From assembly GCF_008084145.1 (NCBI RefSeq), contig NZ_VSDO01000006.1, positions 422,366-486,365 of the forward strand: a stretch of 64,000 bases of DNA. Direction: 5' to 3'. Each line of letters begins with the position of its first letter. Positions within the stretch are counted from its first letter, which is position 1. Shown here in pieces: positions 12,600-63,549 of the stretch. The DNA is from Paenibacillus faecis. Lineage in GTDB: Bacteria > Bacillota > Bacilli > Paenibacillales > Paenibacillaceae. The translations under genes and the position numbers were made by a program. A model generated the notes under the pieces. It saw nothing but the letters and a program-made list of their open reading frames with translations. It was not told where the DNA came from and did no database searches.

Positions 12600-12788
12600 G
12601 ATGCAAATATGCAGGAATTTCCGCCAAATTGTCGAGCCGTCCTACAAATTGATGTAAAACTGCAGGAATTTCCGGCCAAAGACTAGAGAGCGCTCTTTTC
12701 ACGAGAAAAAGCCTGCAGATTTGCAGGAATTCTAAAAACTCAGCCCGATGCGAGCGAAAAAGATGCAGATTTGCAGGCATTTCCGACC
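12600..12788 (+). repeat. four-unit 16-mer repeat array, copy 1
   Basis: Four near-palindromic 16-mers related to (GA/CC)TGCAGATTTGCAGG begin at 12600, 12651, 12712 and 12762 (steps 51, 61, 50). Each is followed by (A/C)ATT(T/C) and usually CCG. The same four-unit architecture occurs inverted at 62233-62422 with steps 50, 61, 50, and the sequence between the units is partly conserved (AAAAAG before unit 4 in both). Confidence 0.85.
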
Positions 12789-12807: not shown

Positions 12808-13437
12808 TCAACCCGAAACGTAAGGGTTGTTCGCCCGCTCGAATCCGATACTCGTTTTGGGACCATGGCCCGGATAGACCTTGGTTTCGTCGGCAAAACG
12901 GAACAAAGTGCCGCGAATCGAATTGTACAGGTCCGCCTCGCGCCCGCCGGGAAGATCCGTCCGCCCTACGCTCAATTTGAACAGGCAATCGCCCGAGAAC
13001 AAATCGTCGCCGCAAAGAAAACTCACGCTGCCCGGGGAATGTCCGGGCGTATGGTATACCGTAAACTCGTGGCCGATCAGCTTAATCTTCTGTCCTTCGG
13101 CCAAATCAAACTCCGCCGGTTCGCACGCGATCGGCCCCGTCACCGTCGGCCACATCAAGGAACCGTTCAGTTTAGGGCTCGTCAGCCACTCGCTTTCCAA
13201 AGGGTGCAAGTAAACCGGGCAGCCCTTAAGCTTCCGAATCTCCTCCACGCCGCCGATATGATCGAAATGGGCATGCGTCAACAATATCGCTTCAATCTCC
13301 AATCCTTCAATTCTCCGCAGCAGAGGACCCGGATTCATGCCGGGGTCGATAATAACGGCCCGACCGTCGTCGTCCCCCCGAAGCAGATAAGCGTTCGTTT
13401 GCAAAGGTCCCAAAGAAAAGCTCTCTATTCGCAGCAT
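12808..13437 (-). CDS. MBL-fold hydrolase, glyoxalase II-like
   Basis: 209 aa. The zinc-binding signature THAHFDH is at about residue 54, a further His is in HTPGHSPGS, an Asp in FSGDCLF and a His in VYPGHGP. Size and motif order fit the YqgX/hydroxyacylglutathione-hydrolase-like group found in Firmicutes, which may hydrolyse thioesters. Third gene of a DedA / thioredoxin-like / MBL operon; it starts 6 nt after the thioredoxin-like gene's stop. Confidence 0.85.
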   Translation of the reverse strand: MLRIESFSLGPLQTNAYLLRGDDDGRAVIIDPGMNPGPLLRRIEGLEIEAILLTHAHFDHIGGVEEIRKLKGCPVYLHPLESEWLTSPKLNGSLMWPTVTGPIACEPAEFDLAEGQKIKLIGHEFTVYHTPGHSPGSVSFLCGDDLFSGDCLFKLSVGRTDLPGGREADLYNSIRGTLFRFADETKVYPGHGPKTSIGFERANNPYVSG

Positions 13438-48644: not shown

Positions 48645-48846
48645 ATTTCAGGTGAGGTAGAGGTCGCGACTGTGAAGAGTACACTGGAGGAGGCGTTTGA
48701 AGCCGCCCGTGATTCCTGTGGAAAGGCGCCGTCGCCGAAGCATCGCCGCATGGCTTCTGTACCGCGGCGTGCTGGGGCTGTTACCGAAAGGGACAGAACT
48801 GTCACGGTTATTCTTCACCGGAAGAACCGTGTTGAGCTATCTTGCA
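48645..48846 (+). ncRNA. lysine riboswitch (L-box)
   Basis: The consensus strings occur in order: GAGGTAGAGGTCGCGAC, GAAGAGTA, GGAGGA, CTGTGGAAAGG, GTCGCCGAAGC, TGGGGCTG, ACTGTCA and GAGCTATCT, which pairs with the 5' GGTAGAG to close stem P1. This is the lysine-binding aptamer found before lysC and lysine transporter genes. It is followed by a terminator and a lysine-type permease, so lysine binding should cause early termination. Confidence 0.92.
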
Positions 48847-48876
48847 GAATGGTGAGGGTGCATCGGTATATATGTC

Positions 48877-61140: not shown

Positions 61141-61953
61141 TCAAATCGCCATATATACCTCCAGGTAATACCAGGTTTGTTTCTCCCGTTTTTCATTCAC
61201 AATGATCCGCCCGACGATGTCGCCCCGCAAACTATATCCGTTGTTCCGCAAGTAATCGAACATAAAGCTTAGAGATGATCTCGATATATTCTCTTTCTGA
61301 TGCACCCGGATCGTCGCCGAGATGCCGATGGCCGGAGGCAAATACTCCGCTTGTTCCGGCACGGTAACTTCCAAGCTTCGCACATCGTCTTCCATCAAGG
61401 ATAATCCCCAGCTGTAATCCCAGTCATCCTGCTCGTCCGCGTCCGTCTCTCCCGACTCGATCCGGAAGGAGTAGAACGTAAACGGAAGCAGCTCCATCCA
61501 GGTCGTTACATCCCATTTCAGGGCATCGTTTCTCAATAAGCGGTTCTTCTTCGTTTGCTTTAACCGATACATGCCGGGTCTCGTTTTAATATGGCATTGA
61601 TTCATCGTTGCCTCCAGAGATTCAAGCTCCCGGTAAATTTCGTCGATCTTTCCCAGGAGCATGGTGCTTCTGCGAATCTGAGCCTGCAAATTATGACGGC
61701 TGTCGCCCACTTCTTCCCTAATTTGGTCCAGCGTCGATTGCTGCATCATATCCGCCACGCTTTGCAGGGGCAGCTGCAGGCTCCGATACCAGCGGCTCAT
61801 CAAAAGATCCCTCGCGTCAAAATCATCAAAATACCGGTAGCGGTTCTTCTCATTTTTGCTGGGCTGGACAATATTGTGCTTCTCATATAACCGTAACGTG
61901 TCCCGCGTGATCCCGAGCAGAGCCGAGAATTCGCCAATATTGTATTCCATCAT
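61141..61953 (-). CDS. MerR family transcriptional regulator
   Basis: 270 aa. N-terminal MerR winged helix YNIGEFSALLGITRDTLRLYEKHNIVQPS...NRYRYF (residues 3-45), coiled coil to about 125, then an effector-binding-like domain of about 140 residues (GyrI/BacR-like). Start at 61953 behind GGAGGACGTGA. Its stop is only 29 bp from a MerR-type operator that drives the flavoreductase, so it is almost certainly that gene's regulator; the ligand is unknown. Confidence 0.9.
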   Translation of the reverse strand: MMEYNIGEFSALLGITRDTLRLYEKHNIVQPSKNEKNRYRYFDDFDARDLLMSRWYRSLQLPLQSVADMMQQSTLDQIREEVGDSRHNLQAQIRRSTMLLGKIDEIYRELESLEATMNQCHIKTRPGMYRLKQTKKNRLLRNDALKWDVTTWMELLPFTFYSFRIESGETDADEQDDWDYSWGLSLMEDDVRSLEVTVPEQAEYLPPAIGISATIRVHQKENISRSSLSFMFDYLRNNGYSLRGDIVGRIIVNEKREKQTWYYLEVYMAI

Positions 61954-62059
61954 TCACGTCCTCCATTCCTCTTAATCATGGACGACTCTCATCATACAAG
62001 AGGGACTCGTGAGATAATATAACCGTGTTCACAAACCGGGCTCAAGCGCTAACCATAAT

Positions 62060-62487
62060 CACCCGTCAAATGGGTGGTTTGCTCTAAAGCTATAAGCCTT
62101 TATTACCGGCTCGCGTCTAAAAGCGCTAGCTTTCACTACGTTCAAGCTACTATGTGCCTTTGCCGCTTTTGCCTACCCTTGAAGGGATGCGATTATTACT
62201 AGCTAGTACCCGTCAGACAATCTTGCTAACATAAAATTCCTGCATATCTGCATGCTTTTTTCCTGTTTGGACTCAAAATTTCTAAATTCCTGCAAATCTG
62301 CAGGAATTTTCGACGAAACCGGCTCGTTTCTCTAAAATCGCTGGAAATGCCTGCAGATTTGCATCTTTTTTCGAATTCCCACGGGACCGGCCAGAAATAC
62401 CTGCAGATTTGCATCCTTTTGGAGTTACGCCCCCATTCAGATGGCTTTTGGCTATAAGCATCACTACACCACCCGCATAGCAGGTGT
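62060..62487. repeat. hairpin-bounded inverted repeats, possible IS remnant
   Basis: Left: CACCC-N7-GGGTG hairpin (62060-62076) then, within 27 bp, TATAAGCC. Right: GGCTATAAGC (62450-62459) then a CACCTGC/GCGGGTG-type hairpin (62468-62487, minus strand). As rc pairs, both ends read GGGTGGT...(T)TATA(A)GCC. The arrangement resembles ends of small IS200/IS605-like elements, but no transposase remains and the repeat array sits between them. Confidence 0.3.
62233..62422 (-). repeat. four-unit 16-mer repeat array, copy 2
   Basis: Cores CCTGCA(T/A/G)AT(C/T)TGCA(G/T)(G/C) start at 62239, 62289, 62350 and 62400 (steps 50, 61, 50). Read on the minus strand this is the same order and spacing as 12600-12788. 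Best core, CCTGCAAATCTGCAGG, is at 62289-62304. Confidence 0.85.
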
Positions 62488-62528
62488 TTTTTGTTTCGCA
62501 CGCTTGCCAGCTCAACTGGCTAAAGCCC

Positions 62529-62688: not shown

Positions 62689-63549
62689 TTAACGCACCAC
62701 GCTATCCCGTCCGTACTGGCGGACAAAGTAGGCGTCCTCCAAGGTCGGCTCCGCCAAAGTCAGCCCCGGGAAAGGGCGATTTCCCCCGATCAGGCGAACA
62801 TAAATGCCCTCCGCCATCTCACGAAAGTGAATCATATTCCGTTGGGAGCAGTTCTCGAACTGCTCCCGGGTTATAAGGCCCTCCCAAACTTCCAAGGGCA
62901 ATTCGTCGTTCCAGCGGCGCGTCCCCCCTTCGAAACCGATCTTTCCCCGGTTGAGCCAAATGACATGATCCGCCGCTTCATCCCATTCGTTCATTTCGTG
63001 CACGGCGGCGATGACGGTCCTCCCTCCAGCATAACGGGACAAGTAACTGATTGCCATTTTCCGCTCGGCTGTATCCATCGCATTAAGCGGCTCATCCAGG
63101 AACAGAAAATAAGGTGCGGCCAAAAGAGCCTGAGCCAGGGCGATGCGGCGGCGAATCCCAAGCGAAAGCAGCTTGATCTTGTGGTTTCGGTATGGAATCA
63201 GGCGAAAATCGGACAATAGCGCATCGATCCGTTCTCGATGATACACCCCCTTCAACTCCGCCAAATAAGCGAGCAGACGGTATACCTTCATCTCCTCGTA
63301 GAGTTCGATCTCGGCCGGCACATAGCCGATTTGGCTCCTGAGCAGCGGCAGATCTTCGGCGGCGGACCGCTGGCGGTACAGGATTTCCCCCCTCCGGGGC
63401 AGTTGAAGGGTCGCCAGCAGCTCCAGCAGCGTTGTTTTCCCGGCTCCGTTCGCCCCGACCAACAGCGTCAGCCCCGGGGGGATGCGGAGCTTCCCGATTT
63501 CCAGGGTCAGCTCCCCCATAGGGTGGCGTATATTTTCCAGCATAATCAT
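62689..63549 (-). CDS. ABC transporter ATP-binding protein
   Basis: 286 aa. Walker A VGANGAGKTTLLE, Q-loop region IGYVPAEIELYEEMKV, signature LSLGIRRRIALAQALL, Walker B FLFLDEPLNAMD, H-loop AAVHEMNEWDEA. The C-terminal 70 residues are an extra domain typical of ABC-2-type exporters. Overlaps the permease gene by 4 nt. Substrate unknown. Confidence 0.9.
   Translation of the reverse strand: MIMLENIRHPMGELTLEIGKLRIPPGLTLLVGANGAGKTTLLELLATLQLPRRGEILYRQRSAAEDLPLLRSQIGYVPAEIELYEEMKVYRLLAYLAELKGVYHRERIDALLSDFRLIPYRNHKIKLLSLGIRRRIALAQALLAAPYFLFLDEPLNAMDTAERKMAISYLSRYAGGRTVIAAVHEMNEWDEAADHVIWLNRGKIGFEGGTRRWNDELPLEVWEGLITREQFENCSQRNMIHFREMAEGIYVRLIGGNRPFPGLTLAEPTLEDAYFVRQYGRDSVVR

Follow-up and report, generated by a model that had tools for sequence, protein, structure and literature searches.

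The four-unit repeat array found in a 64,000-nucleotide stretch of the Paenibacillus faecis genome (GCF_008084145.1, contig NZ_VSDO01000006.1; the stretch is called the window and the genome G000 below) is a real feature, and it is larger in scale than first noted. Each array has, in our judgement, about an even chance of being a double-stranded DNA landing platform for a putative dimeric DNA-binding protein. Protein-binding sites, one of two roles put forward in an earlier note on this DNA, remain the likely role; the units are constrained and stand in mirror order, and pairing within them is not supported.

The two arrays of the window

Both four-unit arrays were confirmed, with steps between unit starts of 51/61/50 and, for the second read on the minus strand, 50/61/50. 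Their parts and neighbours are as follows.

12600..12777, + strand: array 1, four units, steps 51/61/50; an "old" copy with diverged spacers
12600..12615, + strand: array 1 unit 1, GATGCAAATATGCAGG
12651..12666, + strand: array 1 unit 2, GATGTAAAACTGCAGG, degenerate
12712..12727, - strand: array 1 unit 3 (CCTGCAGATTTGCAGG on the + strand), pointing inward from the right
12762..12777, - strand: array 1 unit 4 (GATGCAGATTTGCAGG on the + strand), pointing inward from the right
12808..13437, - strand: metallo-beta-lactamase fold gene; array 1 lies about 30 bp beyond its 3' end
61141..61953, - strand: MerR-type regulator gene; array 2 lies about 285 bp ahead of its start
62058..62527, - strand: non-coding carrier repeat enclosing array 2, ends approximate; left-end motif at about 62510-62527, right-end hairpin at about 62058-62078
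62239..62415, - strand: array 2, four units, minus-strand steps 50/61/50; a "young" family copy
62400..62415, - strand: array 2 unit 1, GATGCAAATCTGCAGG
62350..62365, - strand: array 2 unit 2, GATGCAAATCTGCAGG
62289..62304, + strand: array 2 unit 3 (CCTGCAGATTTGCAGG on the minus strand), pointing inward
62239..62254, + strand: array 2 unit 4 (CATGCAGATATGCAGG on the minus strand), pointing inward
62689..63549, - strand: ABC transporter ATPase gene; array 2 lies about 270 bp beyond its 3' end

With up to three mismatches, CCTGCAGATTTGCAGG has 11 matches in the window against 0.49 expected, a count reached in 0 of 100 shuffles. Array 2 sits inside a non-coding repeat whose left-end motif and right-end hairpin resemble, by eye, those of an IS200/IS605-like non-autonomous element; around array 1 no such carrier was found, the left-end motif being absent from the 700 bp upstream. 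The description of the array as present twice and inverted holds for the two copies, but the inversion carries little information, because the array itself is mirror-symmetric. Neither copy overlaps a gene called from codon usage, although mechanical open reading frames cross array 1. The window also holds a lysine riboswitch (48650-48847, + strand) and, at its edge, a truncated 16S rRNA gene (1-1020, - strand).

Copy number and distribution

A DNA search of G000 with array 1 gave 41 matches on six of nine contigs (the best 40 of 205 candidates scored), which, apart from array 1 itself and two fragments of one copy, are full-length at 68-72% identity. Searched as TGCAnATnTGCA-n49-TGCAnATnTGCA with up to two mismatches, the genome holds at least 149 U2-U3 places against none for the reversed pattern, which disposes of the possibility that only two copies exist. 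Regarding scattered single units, a weight-matrix sample of 863,900 bases (the window and 40 stretches, 35 of them picked around hits) contained 49 four-unit, four three-unit and no two-unit clusters, beside 32 isolated unit hits against about 9 expected from shuffles, and the first 100 kb of contig 1, taken irrespective of hits, contained four four-unit clusters and one isolated hit (1 expected). Random scatter thus fails to describe G000, where quartets prevail, but two other genomes are less clean: in 400 kb each, with about four isolated units expected, G392 has 12 single, two double, five four-unit and one seven-unit occurrence, and G006 has six single, two double, one triple and four four-unit occurrences. 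Arrays also stand at the very start of two G000 contigs (G000:C6:130-321 and G000:C7:129-318), which perhaps reflects repeats breaking the assembly. The density along contig 1 looks uneven: by hand count, the places listed for it form about eight clusters up to 0.85 Mb and about 33 over the 0.94 Mb that follow.

When the gap is left free between 30 and 60 bp, the pair matches 22 of 40 same-genus genomes, some of them by one match that is possibly chance, and the reversed control gives none in all 40. Pair counts reach 348 in G000, 199 in G028, 102 in G006, 89 in G011 and 64 in G061; G008 has 30, G021 24, G030 19 and G013 13. The exact pair is absent from the other 18 of the 40, and the system is therefore not essential across the genus. 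Among named genomes, a scan for four exact units gave at least 75 stretches, with 20 named sources among the matches listed, all of these being Paenibacillus (such as Paenibacillus macerans), Cohnella, Fontibacillus or Paenibacillaceae bins; from such named matches the order was taken as Paenibacillales. The pair search across that order matched 124 of 392 genomes, the reversed control exceeding zero in a minority of them (at most 11 in G106 and 4 in G312). A sequence-only profile built from 63 arrays matched 206 of the 392 at E<=1e-3 and 119 at E<=1e-10. In a class-wide draw it matched 23 of 299 genomes, 10 within the order and 13 outside; 12 of these 13 matches are background-like, with E from 8e-6 to 9e-4, and E<=1e-10 was consequently taken as the threshold. 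The remaining one, G437 (L316), in the class but outside the order, has E 8.6e-15 and clear arrays with steps 51/61/51.

Unit anatomy and spacing

The unit can be written AAA-n4-TGCA-n4-TGCA-n4-TTT and the order within an array is -> -> <- <-. Each site is built of a pair of TGCA blocks, set 8 bp apart around an A/T-rich middle, with a T-tract at a distance of about one turn. Among 412 inward-oriented units from other species, both TGCA blocks hardly vary, the A-rich middle reads AAWG and the T-tract lies 5-7 bases past the inner TGCA, with a weaker A-tract counterpart on the outer side.

The middle step is 61 or 62 bp in 153 of 157 arrays and the outer steps are 50 or 51 bp in 307 of 314, with hand-derived means of 50.6/61.3/50.6 bp; part of these arrays came from searches that prescribed some of the steps or all of them, and data with open spacing are the proper test. 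With an open range of 42-72 bp, 39 of 72 steps are 50 or 51 bp and 13 are 61 or 62 bp. In 45 stretches of 20 kb unselected for arrays, exact units that follow one another at 13-140 bp give 19 distances, every one of them 50-52, 61-62 or 111-114 bp. The mean steps amount to 4.82 and 5.84 turns at 10.5 bp per turn and to 5 and 6 turns at 10.1-10.2, so that the suggestion of all four sites on one face of the DNA stands at the latter pitch but not at the former.

Spacers are shared only within recent families, and the geometry is kept across unrelated spacers. Another form occurs in G230 (L108, L231, G230:C1:1177259-1177629): here the units stand in tandem rows, from three up to at least eight per row with steps of 51-52 bp, unlike the quartets. 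G111 too has tandem unit rows at about 51 bp. Meanwhile, one G000 array split by 1.7 kb was considered as a variant and rejected as such: the intervening segment (L041:13780-15473, contig 1) is an IS66-family element (Pfam DDE_Tnp_IS66) inserted inside an array unit; AAATCTG flanks it at either end, and array parts lie to its left and right.

Constraint on units and spacers

In an alignment of 39 of 40 young G000 copies, the IS66-disrupted copy being excluded, divergence from the consensus is 0.016 for the TGCA cores, 0.059 for the other unit positions and 0.133 for the spacers, and 0 of 10,000 random sets of spacer columns were as low. Private singletons, which are expected to arise mostly after dispersal, number 7/1248 at core positions, 28/2496 at other unit positions and 61/3471 at spacer positions; the cores have threefold fewer than the spacers (p=0.0013).

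The same contrast was found between species at shared places, with LytR, aminotransferase and CorA families assigned by Pfam. An array adjoins a hemL-like aminotransferase gene (Pfam Aminotran_3) in nine of 31 genomes (L216, L217, L218, L220, L223, L224, L225, L231 and L155; a weak two-unit hit in L210 is excluded), six of the nine lying in the gap between LytR and the aminotransferase; this seems a high-looking count in an array-rich sample, 30 of the genomes having been selected as array-rich and the 31st, Cohnella zeiphila, being the query locus. Five of the six gap cases were compared, the tandem form of G230 being omitted. Across four same-genus species, identity is 0.87-0.97 in the units, 0.64-0.86 in the spacers and 0.54-0.72 in the 60-bp flanks, and these four arrays look orthologous. 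Their steps, 51/62/51, 51/63/51, 51/63/52 and 52/63/52, show a slight drift of the geometry, with a middle step of 63 in three of four and an outer step of 52 in two of four. The gap arrays of C. zeiphila and G230 may be independent, the former because its spacers are at shuffled level. At a CorA locus in two of the four species, units are at 0.88, spacers at 0.55 and flanks at 0.57, against 0.44 when shuffled, and arrays from different loci in the same two genomes give 0.80 for units and 0.44-0.45 for spacers, which is the shuffled level. The proposal that unit geometry is under selection is supported by this constraint, greater on units than on spacers copy by copy, and by the near-fixed steps; detection was unit-based (up to two mismatches per 8 core bases), by which decayed copies could be hidden.

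Position relative to genes and chromosome

By the crude gene calls of a simple codon-usage script, none of 120 arrays (0/49 in G000 and 0/71 in other species) shares 30 bp or more with a called gene, and the arrays lie mostly beyond gene 3' ends. Convergent gaps make up 21 of 47 array-bearing gaps in G000 and 19 of 50 in other species (loci of at least 3 kb from the named-genome scan), against 72/514 and 29/221 elsewhere (p 2e-6 and 1e-4). Divergent gaps are depleted, with 1/47 and 1/50 against 101/514 and 48/221 (p 0.0012 and 0.0004). Flanking stop codons lie at a median of 133 bp from the array in the other species (n=81), and flanking start codons at 350 bp (n=40).

A strong pull to the origin or terminus was rejected, the distribution in G392 and G006 being uneven and not clustered. 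GC skew, from 20 evenly placed samples each, puts the origin near 0 in G392 and at about 1.8 Mb in G006, a genome with two ParB-type genes at 1.83 Mb. By hand count, the origin-proximal half holds 23 of 36 array rows in G392 and 62 of 106 in G006 among the matches listed; 100 of these 106 rows are listed and reach 6.31 Mb, with at most six beyond, below average density.

As for the cognate protein, a recurrent neighbour gene was sought by all-against-all BLAST of the open reading frames at array loci of other species and was rejected, only common families being found; the largest group is ABC-transporter-like, at 13 loci and mostly more than 1 kb from the array. The flanks of ten low-copy or tandem loci have no gene in common. 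A ParB-type link was also rejected, as such genes do not clearly follow the arrays: two strong matches are present in each of 40 genomes, and a weak third occurs in 5/12 array-rich and 6/28 other genomes and is absent from G028 (199 pairs).

Mobility and alternative explanations

Of 49 sampled G000 arrays, 15, including array 2, have the carrier left end within 700 bp upstream, 10 of them with both ends, and 34 have none in that distance. By eye, the hairpin ends of this carrier, found with array 2 and further G000 arrays, are like those of IS200/IS605-type non-autonomous repeats; the 34 arrays without a left end, and genomes that hold arrays without a Y1 match, set the arrays apart from such repeats. 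Arrays lie inside amplified repeats in all three genomes examined, so that part of their spread is due to mobility. These repeats reach beyond the array in G000 and G392 (in the latter with about 60 bp of common flank on each side) and mainly on one side in G006 (about 50 bp). Mobility helps some arrays to spread and does not define them, because five array-rich genomes have no Y1 match. A phage origin was rejected: the viral contigs searched gave no three-unit matches and 11 two-unit matches, none with these steps on inspection, among them a 50-bp tandem repeat (L323) and a weak 48/58/48 chain (L320).

The main rival to a binding platform, which we hold to be rather unlikely, is a selfish, MITE-like, transposase-bound element, each half of which would carry two transposase-binding sites, inverted at the other end, the geometry being retained because transposition requires it. 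It accounts for lineage-specific amplified families with common flanks in G000, G006 and G392 and for a copy number that is patchy between genomes, and avoidance of genes and promoters is expected of any tolerated mobile insertion. However, private mutations spare the TGCA cores and arrays at the same place in several species keep their units better than their spacers; such constraint on individual settled copies speaks against a purely transposase-binding element. In addition, the amplified repeat of G000 and that of G392 enclose the array and do not have it at their ends, no linked transposase recurs among the neighbours, Y1 gene numbers do not follow array numbers, and G230 and G111 hold the tandem rows at about 51 bp. 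Another reading, REP/BIME elements mobilised by Y1 (RAYT-type) transposases, is very improbable. More than 100 intergenic copies of palindromic units in both orientations, the carrier ends at 15 of 49 sampled G000 arrays (both ends at 10) and the 14 and 7 Y1 matches of the two richest genomes, G000 and G028, would agree with it, but Y1 matches occur in 7/12 genomes with at least ten pairs and in 13/28 others (Spearman 0.13, p=0.42). The Y1 link was rejected as 5 of those 12, namely G011 (89 pairs), G008 (30), G021 (24), G030 (19) and G013 (13), lack a match; conversely, G017, of the same genus, has 20 Y1 matches and zero exact array pairs, and the units lack a hairpin signal.

That absence bears also on multi-hairpin RNA or bidirectional terminators, the least probable of the readings. 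The units are indeed short palindromes with T-tracts, and terminator-like shapes occur on 84/98 array strands in G000 and 78/142 in other species; a strict rule finds a terminator at only 5/81 gene 3' ends facing arrays, a figure that comes without a background rate. Nevertheless, complementarity within units at flank positions 1-5 (0.585, 0.502, 0.498, 0.447, 0.738) equals that between a left half and the right half of another unit of the same array (0.598, 0.475, 0.512, 0.465, 0.715), so that the halves track a species-wide consensus and not each other; the excess of same-unit complementarity over an all-species shuffle at most positions is expected from this shared consensus. The covariation check called for earlier, run with RNAalifold on 63 arrays, gave a term of -0.12, with two-sided change in 3/16 predicted pairs and no support for pairing, and most young copies conserve GA/GG mismatches in their first two units. 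The window arrays have no Rfam match at gathering score; when four further loci were scanned under lax settings, the sole Rfam hit was mir-367, which scored 27.8 bits where 54 are required and falls inside an array of L148. By a laxer rule, array-facing genes do not differ much from other genes in having a terminator of their own (30/62 vs 100/265 and 19/54 vs 37/131), and a terminator role is not supported; nor, given the complementarity control, the covariation term and the Rfam result, is the multi-hairpin RNA that had been the second suggested role. Operators of an ordinary global transcription factor are improbable as well: unit symmetry and size fit, and the TGCA-n4-TGCA spacing seems similar to that of the tra-box and PlcR-box layouts, but divergent gaps are as rare as 1/47 and 1/50, start codons are more distant than stop codons (medians of 350 and 133 bp in other species) and the units come mainly as quartets.

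Comparison with known systems

Short double-stranded chromosomal sites repeated for a dedicated binder are known from parS and Spo0J/Noc, and the sopC centromere of the F plasmid has palindromic sites in tandem at a regular multi-turn spacing. The site matS, bound by MatP, is reported as 13 bp long with 23 copies in Ter (PMC3330122). The arrays resemble matS-MatP and parS-Spo0J/Noc in being short double-stranded sites repeated on the chromosome, here for a putative binder; unlike these, they come mainly as fixed quartets, at least 149 of them in G000, and are not confined to Ter or the origin, and, unlike parS, they are not clearly followed by an extra ParB-type gene. Unlike sopC, they are dispersed chromosomal quartets in mirror order, with no partition genes noticed alongside. 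REP/BIME elements are described (PMC2817692) as dispersed intergenic palindromic units, more than 100 per genome, with regular spacing and protein binding. The arrays are also dispersed and intergenic, with more than 100 copies per genome, but they consist mainly of four mirror-order units at 50/61/50, lack a hairpin signal and a Y1 link, and have spacers that are unconserved between families; the conserved hairpin kept by compensation that marks REP/BIME is not found in their units. In the main text of a REP survey (PMC12306157) a word search finds "Paenibacillus" 0 times, and the portions of the literature searched gave no description of phased four-site arrays.

Proposed binding complex and its meaning

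The preferred unit number, mirror order, phasing, free spacers and site constraint are what a cooperative complex on double-stranded DNA needs. We infer both the protein and its job: one dimer would bind each unit, and four dimers would assemble into one mirror-symmetric complex over about 190 bp, in which the DNA is probably wrapped or sharply bent, since the steps fit 10.1-10.2 bp per turn better than 10.5. The job may concern the architecture or topology of the chromosome, for example the anchoring of loops or the insulation of transcription units from each other, which would be favoured over classical promoter control. As the arrays are apparently preserved by selection, they probably hold a chromosome-shaping protein. 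We suggest more tentatively, as a possibility, that Paenibacillales and at least one genome outside the order possess an undescribed architecture system, in which a candidate protein would close into a mirror-symmetric complex of four dimers on each phased quartet, present up to well over 100 times per chromosome beyond gene ends as a bacterial counterpart of insulators or loop anchors, with the site sequence drifting between species and the geometry nearly fixed.

Even if the repeat proved selfish, its settled copies would still show constraint at the sites. A 200-bp bait would serve to retrieve a cognate protein directly. If the proposal is true, the natural variants in spacers, units and tandem forms would suit the study of supercoiling and loop partitioning, and the rule of four sites in two facing pairs at 5/6/5 turns would predict a defined multi-dimer complex; a large bacterial group would then carry a site system ruled by geometry and not by sequence.
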